Shown: positions 6,103 through 41,798 of the stretch, in pieces | How positions within the stretch are numbered: the stretch's first letter is position 1 | Layout of the letters: the number at the start of each line of letters is the position of its first letter | Assembly: GCF_026625605.1 (NCBI RefSeq) | Contig: NZ_CP113054.1 | Coordinates: forward strand, 2,666,001-2,730,000 | DNA from: Luteolibacter sp. SL250 | Lineage (GTDB): Bacteria; Verrucomicrobiota; Verrucomicrobiia; Verrucomicrobiales; Akkermansiaceae | DNA length: 64,000 bases | Reading direction: 5' to 3' | Translations under genes and position numbers: made by a program | The notes under the pieces: generated by a model | The model's input: only the letters and a program-made list of their open reading frames with translations | Databases searched by the model: none | Told to the model about the DNA's origin: nothing

Positions 6103-8685
6103 GTGGCTCGTTCGGGGTTGCGGAAAGGCGTCAACCCGCTAGATAAAAAATCGATGGGTGCGCAGGATACCGGGGAGTTGAACGTCATCGGGCTGATTGG
6201 CCCGGGAGGGTGTGGTTCGGTTTGCTCGGCTGAAGATGCCGGCGGCAAGCAGGTGGCGGTGAAATATTTCGAAGGAATGGCCATCCGCCGGAACCTCCTT
6301 TCCTCCATGTTGGGTCGCCTGATCCAGGATGGGTGGCCGGAGGGCGTGGTGCCGATCATTTCCAGCGAACTGGAGGGGCGCCCGGCGATGGTGGTGATGC
6401 CCCTGCTGGCGGATACGGATGCGGATGGTGCTCTCAAGCCGCGCTCGCTGCAGTACCGTGTGGACCGGTTTCCAGGGGAGGATCCCTGGAATCTCCTGAT
6501 GGCGGTGGGGCGTGCGCTGGCAGCCATGCACGGGAAGCGGGTGGCCCATGGCAATCTGAAGCCCGGGAACATTTTCTTTGATCAGAACGGCAATGTCCTG
6601 CTTTCGGACTGGGCGCTGGGCAACATGCCCGGAGTGTCCCATCTGGAGTTCACGGACGCGCTTCTCTACCAACCGCCGGAACAACTGCGGGATCCGGGCG
6701 GCTACCTGGAGGAGGCGGGCTACCGGTGGGATGTCTTCGCTTTCGGAGTGCTGGCATTCCGCCTGACGACGGGCGAGTACCCCCGTTGCAATGACACCTT
6801 CATCAAGGTGGCGCCGCCGCAGGGCGAGACACGCCGGGAGGGGATCCATGCGGATCTGCCGAAGATCGCGAAGAATCTCGAACTCCATCCGGACTTTTCC
6901 TGGCCGTCGCCGCCTGCGGACAAGGAGGAGGAGAGCAGGCGGGAATGGATCGACCGTTGCCTGCATCTGGACCCGGCCATGCGGCCATCTTCCATGGCGG
7001 AGGTGCTGGCAGGCTTCGAGGCCGGGGAGCGCAGGCTCGCCGGGGATATCGAGCGGGACGCGATGCTCGACCGGATCCGCGGAGCGGAAAGAAAGGCTTC
7101 CCGGTGGTGTGTCACCGCGTGTCTGGTTGGCGGAGCCTGCCTCGTCCTCGGGGCACTCTGGCAACTTGCGTCGAACCAACGGGATGCGGAGAAGAAGGGC
7201 CGCGTGGACGATACGGCGGAGCTGCGCTCCACGACGGAGGCAGCGGTCGCCGCAAAAGCTGCGGCTGAGAAAACGGCAGGCGAAGCGACACGCGCCCTCG
7301 ACTATGAAAGGAATATCGGGATTGCCCGGTTGGAGGCATCCCGGCTCATCGGTGACAGGCTGTTCGCATGGGCGATGGAAAAAGGGCATCGCAAGCTGCC
7401 GCCTCTGGACGGCCGTCTGGAGCGGCTGAAATCGCTCGAGAAATACTTCGAGGACTTTCTCGTGCGGATCGGGCAGGTGCCGGAACTGGCGGACGAGAGT
7501 GCGCGGATCAAACTCCAGCTTGCGGAAATCTCGCTCGCGGCGGGGGACGCCGAGAAAGCGATATCGCGGCTCAAGGAGGTCCTGGAAGTATGGAAGGACA
7601 ACCCTGCTGACGAGGAACTGCGGTTCCGGATGGCGACGAGTCGTCTTTTGCTGGCGCTGTTGTTGAAATCAAACAACGACCCAAGGATGGAGGGGGCATT
7701 CAAGGCCGCCAGGAAAGCGCTGGGGGAAGTCCGCAAGGAGGAAGTCGACACCGACCGCCTCCAGCAACTGATGGCCATCTTGGATTTCCATGAAGCGAAT
7801 GTGATCGCCGCCCGCGGGGACACGGGCAAGGCCCTCAACCAGCTCATGTCAGCAACCCAGAGCCTGAACCGGCTGGCGGAGGAGAGGCCGGATGCCGTGG
7901 TGCTCCGGTCGGTTCTGGCCACCTGTTATCTTTCTTCGGCGACCATCCTCGAGGGCATGGGAAATCTCGGTGACGCATGGGAAACCCAGATGCTGGCCGC
8001 CCAGGAGATCGCGAAGATGCTGAAGGAAAACCCGAAGGATCCCGGGCTGAGGCTCGATCTGGCTGGGTGCTACGGCCTGATGGCTGAGTCCGCCTTGTTT
8101 TCAGGAGATACCGCCGAAGCCGAAACCCGGTCAACCGAAGCAATCCGTATTCTGGAGGAACTGCTGCGCGAGCAACCGGATCTGGTGGAGGCGGGTGCCA
8201 GGCTGGCATCGCAGATCGGGCTGAAAGCGGGTCTCATGCGGGACAAAGGGGAAACGGAAGCCGCGCTCAAGGCGTTCGATGAGGCGCTACGGATCCTCGA
8301 GGGGCTTTATGCCTCACACCCGGAAAACACGCTGGCCGGATACCGATTGGCGCTGCTTTGGTGGCAGAAGGGCAAAATGGTGGGCATGGGCGGGAAACGC
8401 GAAGAGGAGGTGGAGCTGATCCGGAGGGCGCACGGGTTGATGACGCGCCTGGAGGCGGACAAGAATCCCGGCGGCCCTCCGATGGAGAAGATCCAGAGAT
8501 CCTCCGGCTACCTGCTGGGGGATCTGGGGCATGCGCTGCAGCTCGCAGGCAAAAAGGAAGAAGCGATCGGGGCATTCACGGAATCCGCATCGCTCTGGGA
8601 GCGGTTGTTGGAATCCCGGCCAAAGAGTGAGGAGTATCAGGATAGCCTCGCCTGGTGCCGCCAGCGCATCAAGGAGCTGCAGTAA
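6103..8685 (+). CDS. Membrane-anchored Ser/Thr protein pseudokinase with TPR repeats
   Basis: 860 aa. Kinase-like domain at about residues 25-310: glycine loop IGPGGCGSV, VAIK-type lysine in QVAVKYF, PPE in place of APE, and WDVFAFGVLAFRLTTGEYP for the DxWSxG region. The catalytic loop reads HGNLKPGN, so the HRD aspartate is Asn, and DFG is replaced by DWA; this predicts a pseudokinase. One transmembrane helix follows (CVTACLVGGACLVLGALW, about 335-352), then an Ala/Lys coiled segment, then TPR-like helices to the C-terminus. The GTG start is supported by AGGAG five bases upstream; an ATG at 6154 is the alternative. The TAA stop is the first codon of a repeat element. Confidence 0.85.
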   Translation: MARSGLRKGVNPLDKKSMGAQDTGELNVIGLIGPGGCGSVCSAEDAGGKQVAVKYFEGMAIRRNLLSSMLGRLIQDGWPEGVVPIISSELEGRPAMVVMPLLADTDADGALKPRSLQYRVDRFPGEDPWNLLMAVGRALAAMHGKRVAHGNLKPGNIFFDQNGNVLLSDWALGNMPGVSHLEFTDALLYQPPEQLRDPGGYLEEAGYRWDVFAFGVLAFRLTTGEYPRCNDTFIKVAPPQGETRREGIHADLPKIAKNLELHPDFSWPSPPADKEEESRREWIDRCLHLDPAMRPSSMAEVLAGFEAGERRLAGDIERDAMLDRIRGAERKASRWCVTACLVGGACLVLGALWQLASNQRDAEKKGRVDDTAELRSTTEAAVAAKAAAEKTAGEATRALDYERNIGIARLEASRLIGDRLFAWAMEKGHRKLPPLDGRLERLKSLEKYFEDFLVRIGQVPELADESARIKLQLAEISLAAGDAEKAISRLKEVLEVWKDNPADEELRFRMATSRLLLALLLKSNNDPRMEGAFKAARKALGEVRKEEVDTDRLQQLMAILDFHEANVIAARGDTGKALNQLMSATQSLNRLAEERPDAVVLRSVLATCYLSSATILEGMGNLGDAWETQMLAAQEIAKMLKENPKDPGLRLDLAGCYGLMAESALFSGDTAEAETRSTEAIRILEELLREQPDLVEAGARLASQIGLKAGLMRDKGETEAALKAFDEALRILEGLYASHPENTLAGYRLALLWWQKGKMVGMGGKREEEVELIRRAHGLMTRLEADKNPGGPPMEKIQRSSGYLLGDLGHALQLAGKKEEAIGAFTESASLWERLLESRPKSEEYQDSLAWCRQRIKELQ

Positions 8686-8756
8686 GGAGGGTGGACATTG
8701 CGGCAGTGCCGCCATGTCCGCTTCGCTTCCATTCCTGTCCACCGGCGGCATTGGCG
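8683..8756 (+). repeat. Hairpin repeat family A, copy 1
   Basis: Begins TAAGGAGGGTGGACATTG and contains a near-perfect hairpin (GGACATTGCGGC pairing with GCCGCCATGTCC around a 3-base loop), then CTTCCATTCCTGTCC. Two more copies lie at 14788-14865 and, inverted, at 14961-15038. The TAA is the stop codon of the pseudokinase gene. Confidence 0.8.
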
Positions 8757-8880
8757 AACAAAGGAGGAGAAGTTTCCAGTGTTTTGACTCAGATGATTCA
8801 GTTTTCCTGTTCGTCTCAGTTGCTTCGCAACGGTGTTTTCAGGAAAGAGGAGAAGAAATCCAGTTTGCTCCTCCGCATAC

Positions 8881-10615: not shown

Positions 10616-10643
10616 AAAAAGGAGGACGAGTGTCCTCCTTCTT
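10616..10643 (-). terminator. Intrinsic terminator downstream of rpoD
   Basis: On the minus strand the stem AAGGAGGAC / GTCCTCCTT with loop ACTC is followed by TTTTT. It ends about 15 bases before the Hsp33-like start codon, so it may set the rpoD to hslO read-through ratio. Confidence 0.65.
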
Positions 10644-10660
10644 TGGTTGGTTGTGGACGG

Positions 10661-10680
10661 GTGGGACAGGAGTGTCCCAC
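10661..10680. repeat. Palindrome GTGGGACAGGAGTGTCCCAC
   Basis: Eight-base perfect arms with a 4-base loop, just after the rpoD stop. Its core resembles the neighbouring terminator stem (GGAC-GAGT-GTCC), so the two may share an origin. Confidence 0.6.
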
Positions 10681-10684
10681 CTCA

Positions 10685-12589
10685 TCAGGCTCCCGGGAGT
10701 TCGATGAAGCCTTCCAGTTTCCGGATCCGGGTGGGGTGGCGCATTTTCCGGAGGGCCTTCGCCTCGATCTGGCGGATCCGCTCGCGGGTGACCTGGAACT
10801 GGCGGCCGACTTCCTCGAGCGTGCGGCTGTAGCCGTCCTTGAGGCCGAAGCGTTGCTCCAACACCTCGCGCTCGCGCTCGGTCAGGGTGTCGAGGACGTC
10901 CTTGATCTTGTCCTTGAGCATCGAGAAACCGGCTTCCTCCATCGGGTTGTCGGCGGCCTTGTCTTCGATGAAGTCACCGAAGGAGGTGTCGTCCGAGTCG
11001 CCGACCGGTGCCTGTAGGGAGATTGGTTGCTGCGCCATCTTGAGCACGGCGCGGACCCGCTCGACGGGAAGGTGGATTTCCTCGGCGATTTCCTCCGGGG
11101 AAGGTTCGCGGCCGTATTCCTGGACGAGCTGCTTCTGCACGCGCATCAGCTTGTTGATCGTCTCGATCATGTGGACCGGGATCCGGATGGTCCGGGCCTG
11201 GTCCGCGATGGAGCGGGTGATGGCCTGGCGGATCCACCACGTGGCGTAGGTGGAGAATTTGTAGCCCCGGCGGTATTCGAATTTCTCGACCGCTTTCATC
11301 AGGCCCATGTTGCCTTCCTGGATGAGGTCGAGGAAGGAGAGGCCGCGGTTGGTGTATTTCTTGGCGATGGAAATGACCAGGCGCAGGTTGGCCTCCACCA
11401 TTTCCGTCTTCGCCTTGAGCGCTTCCTTGAGCCAGTGCTTCAGCAGCTTGTTCGCGGCCTCGAAGGACTCGGTGGTGTGCCAGGAGCGTTGCTGGATTTC
11501 CCGCATCTTGGTCTGGAACTCCTTGTCCTCCGGATCGGTCGCCAGCTTGCGGCCGTACTTCCAGAACTTCTGCATGTAGTCATCGACCTGCTCGCAGAAG
11601 TCCTCGACGACCTTCTGCTTGTAGTAGAAGCGGGTGTAAAGGCGGTTGAGGGTCTGGAGGTTCTTGGCAAAGTCCTCCTCGAGCTTCTTCTTGCCACGCG
11701 GAGCTTTGACGGAGAGCTGGCGGAAAATGTCATCGTTCTCCTGGTGGAGCTGCTTCAGGTGTTCGCACAGCTTGGGCAGGCCCTTCATGTAGCGCTCCCG
11801 GGACTCGATCTTCTTGTCGAGGATGACGCGGTCGAAGCGCTCCTTGCCCTTGTTGAGCTTGTCGGCCAGTTCCAGGTAGGATTCCGCGGTGAAGCCGAAG
11901 AGGTGCAGGTGGCGGGCCACCTCGATCTCCGCATCCTCGATGCGCTTGGAAATTTCAACTTCCTGCTCGCGGGTGAGGAGAGGCACCTGGCCCATCTGCT
12001 TCAGATACATCCGGACGGGGTCGTCCAGGATATCGAGCTTCTGGTCGGTCTTGCTGTCCTCCTCGTCATCACCACCTTCGTCCCGCTTCTTGTCCTTGTA
12101 GCGGTCCACTTCGGAGGCATCGATGATGTCGAACTCCATGTTGCGGAGCCGGTCCATGATCGCCTCGACGTCGTCCGGATCGACCAGGTCGTTCGGCAGG
12201 ACTTCGTTGATGTCGTCGTAGGTCAGGTATTCCTGCTCCTTGGCCAGCTTGATGAGTTCGCGGATCTTCTCCTGGATCTCAGGAGTGTCGATGCGGCGCT
12301 TGTTGTCCTTTTTGGAAACCTTCGGCTGTTCGACAACCTCCACGACCTCTTCCTTTTTCTTGGTCTTGGCGGGGGCCGCGGCAGGTTTCTTGGCGGACGC
12401 TTTCGGTTCAGGGGCGGCTGGAGCGGCTTTGGCGGGCTTTTTCGCAGGGGCTGGCGCCGCTTTCGCGGCGGGTTGCGCCTTGGCGGCTGCGCCTGCGGCT
12501 TTCACCTTGGTCTTCTCGGCCGGCGCTGCCTTTGCTTTCGGCTTTGGCTTTTCGCTCGACTTGTCGGAAGAAGGTTTTGGTTTGGACAT
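10685..12589 (-). CDS. rpoD: Primary RNA polymerase sigma factor (sigma-70) with Lys/Ala/Pro-rich N-terminal extension
   Basis: 634 aa. Region 1.2 ([21 protein letters not shown]), region 2 ([52 protein letters not shown]), region 3 and region 4.2 ([20 protein letters not shown]) are complete, identifying the housekeeping sigma factor. The first 95 or so residues are almost only Lys, Ala and Pro ([20 protein letters not shown]), like histone-H1-type tails; the segment [21 protein letters not shown] after it resembles region 1.1. The start is the ATG at 12589; an upstream ATG at 12631 overlaps the likely -10 element. Confidence 0.95.
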
Positions 12590-14787: not shown

Positions 14788-14865
14788 TAAGGAGGGAGGA
14801 CATTGCGGCTGCGCCGCTATGTCCGCTGCGCTTCCATTCCTGTCCTCCGGCTGCAACAGCAATCA
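14788..14865 (+). repeat. Hairpin repeat family A, copy 2
   Basis: Begins TAAGGAGGGAGGACATTG, then the hairpin GCGGCTGCGCCGC and the CTTCCATTCCTGTCC tail. It faces copy 3 as an inverted pair across about 95 bases. It lies upstream of the exported methyltransferase gene. Confidence 0.8.
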
Positions 14866-14867
14866 GG

Positions 14868-14901
14868 AAAGACCTGCCGCAAAGTCGCAAAGTCCACAAA
14901 G
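14868..14901 (-). repeat. Short repeat family B, copy 2
   Basis: On the minus strand it reads CTTTGTGGACTTTGCGACTT then TGCGGCAGGTCTTT, matching the copy at 8881-8915. A third partial copy (GCGGTAGATCTTTG) lies at 14945-14958 on the plus strand. All sit between family A copies or next to one. Confidence 0.6.
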
Positions 14902-14960
14902 TAAGCGCAAAGGGAAAGAGACATTAGGAACCTTCGAGTCCGTCGCGGTAGATCTTTGAT

Positions 14961-15038
14961 CATTCGCCAATGCCGCCGGTGGACAAGAATGGGAGCGCAG
15001 CGGACATGGCGGCGCAGCCGCAATGTCCACCCTCCTTA
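14961..15038 (-). repeat. Hairpin repeat family A, copy 3
   Basis: Read on the minus strand it begins TAAGGAGGGTGGACATTGCG and matches copy 1 almost throughout, including the tail ATTGGCGAA. The TAA is the stop codon of the WalJ-like gene, as in copy 1. Confidence 0.8.
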
Positions 15039-15815
15039 CTGGAGCAAGAACCAATCCGACGGCGTTTCCTGCGCAGCGCAGTGGACTTCGATGCTGGTGT
15101 GCCCCAGTCCATCCAGACAGGCACGCAGATGGCGGATGGCGACGTCCGGCTTGTTGCAGTCCGAGCTGAGATGCCCCAGCACGATCCGCAGCAGCAGGGG
15201 ATGGGCGATCTCCACCAGCAGGTCCGCCACCTGCTTGTTGGAAAGGTGGCCGTGGCGGGAGCTGATGCGCTGCTTGGTTGCCCACGGGCGCTTCATATCC
15301 GCTTCCAGCAGGGCGTCATCGTAGTTCGCCTCCACGAACAGCGCGTGCAGGTTGCGCAGGCGCTCCGTCATGCTGCGGGTGACGAACCCTGCGTCTGATA
15401 CCAGGCCCAGCCTCCGCAATTCATGGTCGAAGACGAATCCCACGGGATCCACCGCATCATGCTGGATGGCGAAGGTGTCGATCATCACGCCCTTCAGCTC
15501 GAACGACTGTCCAGCCTCGAAGTATTTCCAGGTCCCGCCCTCGATGCCCTGTTCCTTCACCACGCGGGCGGTGGAGGGGGTGGTGAACACGGGAAGGTTG
15601 AATTGCTTCAGCAGCACCTTCAGGCCACGCACGTGGTCGCCGTGCTCGTGGGTGAGCATGACGCCATCGAGCTGCGCGGGGTCGATGCCCACCGCACGCA
15701 TGCGGGTGACCAGTTGCTTCGCGCTCAGGCCGGCGTCCACCAGCAGGCGCAGTCCGCCCGCCTCGACCACCGTCGCATTCCCACCACTGCCACTCCCAAG
15801 AACCGCGAAACGCAT
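15036..15815 (-). CDS. MBL-fold metallo-hydrolase, YycJ/WalJ type
   Basis: 259 aa from MRFAVLGSGSGGNATVVEAG, the standard start of this family; a longer ORF to 15908 overlaps the thioesterase. The metal-binding motif THEHGDHVRG is near residue 59, followed by an Asp in the GLVSDAGFV segment and a late His in VLGHLSSD. WalJ-type enzymes are 5'-3' exonuclease-like members linked in Firmicutes to WalRK signalling and DNA repair. Here no walRK neighbour is present, so only the biochemical family is claimed. Its stop codon belongs to a family A repeat. Confidence 0.85.
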   Translation of the reverse strand: MRFAVLGSGSGGNATVVEAGGLRLLVDAGLSAKQLVTRMRAVGIDPAQLDGVMLTHEHGDHVRGLKVLLKQFNLPVFTTPSTARVVKEQGIEGGTWKYFEAGQSFELKGVMIDTFAIQHDAVDPVGFVFDHELRRLGLVSDAGFVTRSMTERLRNLHALFVEANYDDALLEADMKRPWATKQRISSRHGHLSNKQVADLLVEIAHPLLLRIVLGHLSSDCNKPDVAIRHLRACLDGLGHTSIEVHCAAQETPSDWFLLQ

Positions 15816-15868
15816 CACGCCGGGAAAATGGGGAGCCGCCGGGAAAGAATCAAGGGCCGGATGCCGGA

Positions 15869-16309
15869 TCACCGCAGGGCAACGAAAAGTCCCTCGAACT
15901 CCACGCATTCCACCCCGTTCTCCACGATGGCGACACGCAGGGAAATGCCGGCCTTCCCGGTGCGGGCGAACTTTCCGCGGAAGGCCGCCAGCGCCTCCGC
16001 ATCGATCCTCGGGCAGACGGCGCGGATTTCACCACGGACCGGGTGGCGGAATTTCAGGGAGCTGCCCTTGATCACGATATGGGAGTCCCGGTCGCCCAGC
16101 TCCAGCCACAGCAGCGCGTAGCCTGTGAGCGTGGCGATGGCGCTGAGGCTGCCGCCGAAGGCCGTGCCCAGATGGTTGTGGTTCGGCTCCAGCGGTGCGG
16201 TGAGCACCAGTCCCTCTTCATCGAACCGTGCGACCCGGACACCCATCGCGCGGGTAAGCGGGATCTGCTCGTGAAGGAACCTTTCGGTGGCGTGGAGATG
16301 GTCACTCAT
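15869..16309 (-). CDS. Hotdog-fold thioesterase (YiiD C-terminal-like)
   Basis: 146 aa starting MSDHLHATERFLHEQIPL. The core PLEPNHNHLGTAFGGSLSA with Asn/His-rich active-site loop, followed by KGSSLKFRHPVRGEIRA, matches the putative thioesterase domain seen in YiiD and similar proteins. Substrate unknown, probably an acyl-thioester. It overlaps the end of rpiB by 8 bases on the same strand, so the two are translated together. Confidence 0.8.
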   Translation of the reverse strand: MSDHLHATERFLHEQIPLTRAMGVRVARFDEEGLVLTAPLEPNHNHLGTAFGGSLSAIATLTGYALLWLELGDRDSHIVIKGSSLKFRHPVRGEIRAVCPRIDAEALAAFRGKFARTGKAGISLRVAIVENGVECVEFEGLFVALR

Positions 16310-39273: not shown

Positions 39274-39348
39274 TCCGGTGTAGCTCAGCGGCAGAGCGGG
39301 TGACTGTTAATCACTAGGTCGTTGGTTCGATCCCAACCGCCGGAGCCA
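39274..39348 (+). tRNA. tRNA-Asn (anticodon GUU)
   Basis: 75 bases with encoded CCA. Acceptor TCCGGTG pairs with CGCCGGA (one G-U); anticodon arm GGTGA-CTGTTAA-TCACT; T arm GTTGG-TTCGATC-CCAAC. It is the intact left edge of the EcoRI-type island. Confidence 0.97.
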
Positions 39349-41728: not shown

Positions 41729-41798
41729 TCCGGCTCAGCGGCAGAGCGGGTAACTGCTAATCACTAGGTCGTTGGTTTGATCCCAATCGCCGGAGCCA
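41729..41798 (+). pseudogene. Degenerate duplicate of tRNA-Asn
   Basis: Matches 39274-39348 except that TGTAG-type bases of the 5' acceptor/D junction are lost (TCCGGCTCAGCGGCAGAGCG), the anticodon is changed to GCT with a mismatch in the anticodon stem, and the T arm is altered (GTTGGTTTGATCCCAATC). CCA is retained. Cannot be a normal tRNA. Confidence 0.9.

Follow-up and report, generated by a model that had tools for sequence, protein, structure and literature searches.

The hairpin repeat that occurs three times in the window, the 64-kb stretch of DNA analysed here, belongs to a REP/REPIN system that includes a RAYT-like enzyme, and the overlap of the edge of its hairpin heads with gene stop codons is real, statistically strong and ordinary in kind. 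The stop codon at such a junction appears to be mostly the host gene's own, with the element abutting it. The reading preferred here, which is considered fairly probable from comparison of the sequences, is that RAYT-moved elements have become attached on the 3' side of GTAA-like sites close to gene ends, where the stop is mostly native.

In the window, TAAGGAGGGWGGACATTG is found exactly at 8683 and 14788 on the plus strand and at 15038 on the minus strand, which agrees with the three copies of the preliminary description and compares with a mean of 0.06 in shuffled sequences. Across 83 nt, the copies at 8683 and 15038 show 93% complementarity. The first copy is a long-form REP head (8683..8758, plus strand), which has TAAGGAG, a hairpin and a GGCGGCATTGGCGAA tail, and its TAA at 8683-8685 is the stop codon of the upstream kinase-like/TPR gene (6253..8685, plus strand, in an ORF from 6103). 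The product of this ORF has a Pkinase domain (PF00069), with HGN and DWA at the positions expected for HRD and DFG, the names of the corresponding kinase motifs, and because of these replacements the earlier label of pseudokinase is plausible. The two other copies form a 251-bp inverted pair of long heads. The left half (14788..14855, plus strand) does not overlap a stop codon, and the right half (14963..15038, minus strand) supplies the second of the two overlaps reported before, its TAA at 15038-15036 being the stop of an MBL-fold gene (15036..15908, minus strand), which had been called WalJ-like. The spacer of this pair (14856..14962) is a mosaic GCAAAGTCGCAAAG-type sequence that is recurrent in many pairs.

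A degenerate REP head (TGATGAGGTGGGACACTCCTGTCCCACC; 10650..10687, minus strand) lies directly on the rpoD stop codon, in a region (10619-10687) that also holds a second REP-like hairpin, which is followed by a T run on the minus strand, as if a REP became the rpoD terminator. None of the three window heads resembles an intrinsic terminator with a T run after the hairpin. Rfam at gathering score gives no match at the heads and, within the window, only tRNAs; a weak tRNA by Rfam (41729-41795, 31.2 bits), which ARAGORN does not call, sits in a repeat (83%) of the tRNA-Asn region at 39283.

The 4.92-Mb genome of the window gives 59 matches to a 78-nt query, 145 to the head pattern with one mismatch allowed (its reversed control pattern gives 0) and 113 to the short-form pattern, many of them in common with the head-pattern matches. 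The curated set was obtained from 198 fuzzy matches in fetched stretches, from which eight without a hairpin were removed by eye, and holds at least 190 heads, a few possibly being missed; strict matches genome-wide number 173. The repeat is dispersed and mainly intergenic, with 183 of the 190 heads outside called genes. The long form (55 heads) has the hairpin GGACATTGCGGCnnnGCCGC.ATGTCC followed by CGCTTCGCTCCCATTCCTGTCC, the short form (127 heads) is GGWGGACA-CTCY-TGTCCWCC, and eight heads have other forms. Most heads (140) are arranged as 70 outward-facing inverted pairs of 47 to 355 bp, of which 28 are long-short, 34 short-short, 6 long-long and 2 contain a broken head, while 50 heads are unpaired. 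Stem positions are paired in 96-100% of the 127 short heads, and one stem pair covaries among them as A-T (69), T-A (45) and G-C (12). As single-stranded DNA the heads fold better than shuffled sequences (z of -2.0 to -3.1 for four sequences). The tetranucleotide at the hairpin foot is GGAG (positions 3-6), which is 96-100% conserved per position; the tag of the GTAG/GTGG superfamily, GT[AG]G at 0-2 nt from the stem, is not seen at these heads, where GGAG lies at the stem and GTAA just outside it.

Two fused heads without a spacer form compact palindromes of about 47 nt at 248072, 2278499 and 3934939 of contig C1 of G000 (the window's own genome), and also at 2254879 and 3421444, two of the five being shorter. 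At 190111, 252172, 3036847, 2023758 and 3948696 of the same contig, an insertion sequence of about 1.2 kb with an IS3-like transposase (rve-type, by eye) splits a short REP hairpin. It is inserted at the same site (after GGACACTC) in all five copies, in both orientations, and the remainder of the repeat picks up about 1.27 kb beyond the insertion in four of the five. That REPs serve as IS targets is already stated in PMC2817692.

The enzyme that presumably mobilises the repeat is encoded in the same genome, by a Y1 transposase gene with the sequence MPNHVHLLF that lies between ffh and miaA (gene names assigned by eye from translations). This gene is flanked by heads at 3699789, 3699976, 3700581 and 3700673, and its own stop is the TAA of a head. 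The protein matches Pfam Y1_Tnp, and TnpA_REP (4er8) is its only match of solved structure. Its score with NCBIfam REP_Tyr_transpos (56.7 bits) is under the cut-off of 80, and the protein is therefore named RAYT-like. A contig search with the RAYT recovers one relative, which is an uncultured Verrucomicrobia MAG.

Overlap with stops was counted against genes called by a simple Markov caller written for the analysis. In 50 of the 190 heads, the gene that lies upstream on the same strand has its stop codon exactly at the edge triplet (43 TAA, 6 TGA and 1 TAG), and 40 more heads lie 1-16 nt from such a stop, which places 90 of 190 at 0-16 nt; a second peak at distance 4 contains 13 heads, mostly TGAGTAAGG. 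Heads with a GTAA edge are on a stop in 41 of 158 cases, against 20 of 182 background GTAA sites outside genes (P=4e-4); GTAA is uncommon outside coding sequence in this genome, and 11% of such sites are stops. The excess is strongest in long GTAA heads (19/41, P=1e-6) and marginal in short ones taken alone (22/112 vs 20/182, P=0.058), and AGTAA sites alone have no significant excess (29/124 vs 8/47, P=0.41). TGA-edged heads are also enriched at stops (6/50 vs 3/140 elsewhere, P=0.011). Fifty heads terminate genes in frame, against four that are read through from the same strand. The coincidence of the repeat's TAA with gene stops, in a fixed orientation, which had been noticed from two copies, is thus a preference of the family genome-wide and exceeds chance. 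When scaled to the supply of GTAA, long heads are equally common 1-16 nt off (8 vs 6 background) and on the stop (19 vs 20), so the outstanding feature is nearness to the gene end, and GTAA sets the exact base. At 2224418, 2540709, 2738207, 4206384 and 948499 of the same contig, a second partial TAAGGA(G) stands between the native stop and the head, a few bases before the latter, as if landing had been repeated at one gene end.

Under the preferred reading, the unit would be a non-autonomous element in which two outward-facing hairpin heads, each made of (A)GTAA, GGAG and the hairpin, surround a spacer, and the RAYT, a Y1 HUH transposase similar to TnpA_REP, would presumably move it. In asymmetric pairs, the long-hairpin end would be joined 3' of a GTAA-like site of the host and the short-hairpin end would bring its own TTAC, in parallel with IS200/IS605-type elements, in which one end uses a target tetranucleotide and the other a tetranucleotide that the element carries. 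Insertions within genes would be lost by selection, and most survivors would be found no more than about 16 nt from a gene end. As GTAA at such places is frequently the stop codon of the gene itself, the stop would be mostly native and the element would abut it. IS608, of the IS200/IS605 type, has TTAC as its target, which is the complement of GTAA, and is joined to the target tetranucleotide at its left end; unlike IS608, the present element has no transposase inside and has inverted heads at both ends.

The two ends of the element behave differently. Of the long ends in the 28 long-short pairs, 14 coincide with a stop and 6 others fall within 16 nt of one; of the short ends, 4 coincide with a stop and 6 others fall within 16 nt. 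The pairs discordant for stop overlap divide 12:2 (P=0.013). GTAA is invariant at the short end (28/28) and relaxed at the long end (G 23, T 27, A 24 and A 26 of 28), which is the pattern that would be expected from an IS200/IS605-like mode. Because its two ends can be told apart, the sequence of an element shows its direction; oriented pairs are divided 14:14 between leading and lagging strands, with replichores estimated from the GC skew of the fetched stretches, and an insertion bias to the lagging strand was rejected on this balance.

A stricter form of this explanation, possible and yet clearly the less credible of the two, is that asymmetric REPINs home to host stops, with the RAYT joining the long end 3' of GTAA or sometimes GTGA; stops would be the preferred and harmless landing sites, GTAA being scarce outside genes in this GC-rich genome. 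Several observations count against the preferred reading, namely the 14:14 strand balance, the non-significant excess at AGTAA alone, the marginal one of short GTAA heads, the 4 of 21 genes that look shortened, and the two relatives in which 25 of 29 heads retain TAA and no more than 2 of the 29 coincide with stops. In some REPINs both ends coincide with stops (1597667/1597914 and 4228039/4228303), which one target site leaves unexplained.

The origin of the stop was approached through orthologue ends. In one alternative, which is judged unlikely, the head would bring its TAA along and insert close to gene 3' ends irrespective of frame; in-frame insertions would persist since TAA gives the protein a clean end, which replaces the native one or cuts it slightly short. 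Such a history would fit the TAA conserved at off-stop heads and in relatives, the ratio of 50 in-frame to 4 read-through heads and the xAG that precedes the stop in 31 of 50 on-stop genes against 54 of 417. Of the 50 on-stop (d=0) genes, 43 passed score and length limits, the C-terminal ends of 40 were queried in same-genus relatives, and 22 gave orthologues. With loci excluded when identity was below 45%, the alignment was shorter than 60 residues or it stopped short of the query end by over 20 residues, a filter that favours equal ends, the 21 genes other than rpoD (78 orthologues in total) have a median end offset of 0 in 10 cases and of at most one residue in 15. Orthologues are longer in four of these genes (236678, 1597914, 2737989 and 3500914), which look shortened and speak for a supplied stop, and shorter in two, one of which is Ffh, with a conserved FPF end. 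Among 14 control genes, which have their own stop ahead of the head, 7 of the 8 with a result end within one residue of their orthologues. The rpoD product, at the degenerate head, has an identical end in 29 of 29 orthologues, the kinase-like gene with its stop at 8685 ends at the same residue as one relative (62% identical), and the MBL-fold gene has four relatives that end within -1 to +4 residues.

No orthologue among the loci listed has the repeat directly after its stop, and the orthologue stops at offset 0 are TGA (26), TAA (9) and TAG (6). Native last codons without AG are retained in Ffh (TTT), 421620 (TCG), 1227069 (CTG) and 2023758 (GCC). If an element-carried TAA had been inserted between the last codon and the native stop, the latter should now be found past the far end of the element; such a displaced stop is seen in just 1 of 36 cases, against 5 of 104 controls, and this variant was rejected. 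Equal orthologue ends, retained non-AG codons, TGA-edged heads at stops and the lack of displaced stops together indicate that the gene mostly ended there already, and the claim that the element provides the stop is not supported by these data.

The TAAGGAG head, with altered stems, is present in 28 of the 61 genus genomes searched, the window's own genome included. A search of two relatives that did not require TAA gave about 98 matches, of which 30 were taken further as loci, and among the 29 heads examined 25 keep TAA, with other bases before it, and 2 are on stops, so that an association with stops is not a general habit of these heads. In a biased set of 61 heads, drawn almost wholly from relatives, 11 are on stops. 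TAA may belong to the head itself and be read by the enzyme. Tandem arrays of REP heads occur in relatives at G006:C25:18511-18691 and G026:C150:397-479, with steps of about 80 bp and 31 bp.

These relatives, whose families are mostly off stops, argue against a regulatory 3'-end function, in which hairpins within about 15 nt of the stop would reduce translation or define the 3' end of the mRNA, nearby copies being retained for this effect, as proposed for E. coli REPs. The 90 of 190 heads at 0-16 nt after a same-strand stop are consistent with such a function, and E. coli REPs within 15 nt of stops can stall ribosomes according to PMC12306157, which cites an earlier study. A regulatory function would also leave the asymmetry of long and short ends unexplained, and it is regarded as improbable, slightly more so than a stop supplied by the element.

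The role first suggested for the repeat was that a stop followed by a Shine-Dalgarno-like stretch alters ribosome recycling or re-initiation, which is now very improbable. GGAGG does directly follow the stop, and a start-like codon (TTG/ATG/GTG) stands at SD-like spacing after it in 50 of the 55 long heads. The frames opened in this way, with 15 to 191 codons, have no common length and none is conserved, the short form is without a start-like codon, and the next same-strand gene is mostly distant; re-initiation after GGAGG was rejected as a candidate. GGAG is kept in every form, with or without a stop, and in relatives where copies are off stops, and the supposed Shine-Dalgarno is better read as the conserved foot tetranucleotide of a REP hairpin. 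That an AT-rich motif overlaps stop codons merely by chance, for which the scarcity of GTAA outside coding sequence and the 11% of such sites that are stops could be invoked, is practically refuted by the present counts of GTAA-edged heads and of long heads, unless the simple gene caller used here has a severe bias.

The repeat family has several known counterparts. Di Nocera et al. (2013; PMC3733652) describe GTAG REPs that are mostly less than 20 bp from gene 3' ends and whose termini often supply a TAG stop, and note GTAG repeats in the Verrucomicrobium O. terrae. The present repeats are similarly tagged and palindromic, occur as singles and inverted dimers and lie near gene 3' ends, but the terminus is GTAA, the foot GGAG and the stop TAA, and orthologues point to a stop that is mostly native. 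Termini that supply stop codons are thus already published for GTAG REPs, and the twist here lies in stops that seem mostly native and two ends that behave differently. REPINs, as presented in PLoS Genet 2011 (PMC3116915), are also inverted REP doublets that form the dispersed unit in genomes with a RAYT, and differ from the present elements, which have a longer and very variable spacer and a long and a short head in one element. TnpA_REP/RAYT enzymes of E. coli and relatives (PMC8266576, PMC6006769 and PMC2817692; PDB 4er8) share with this system the Y1 HUH type, the REP-flanked gene and a tetranucleotide 5' of the hairpin, which is GGAG here and GT[AG]G there. The E. coli enzyme is reported to cut at the dinucleotide CT (PMC8266576), and the AG before TAA in the present family is CT on the opposite strand. 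The joining of one IS200/IS605 end to a target tetranucleotide, with the other end carrying its own, is outlined in PMC6006769. The literature searched, which covered few subscription journals, yielded no comparison of such stops with orthologues, no REPIN insertion target and no description of in vivo insertion targets of a RAYT.

Dissemination of REPs is called poorly understood in PMC8266576, and for their spread and their gathering at gene ends this family predicts a checkable target rule. A repeat that overlaps a stop codon need not have supplied that stop. If homing to stops were true, the crowding of REPs at gene 3' ends, a fact known for long, would have a mechanistic explanation, and the target rule of a RAYT could be read.
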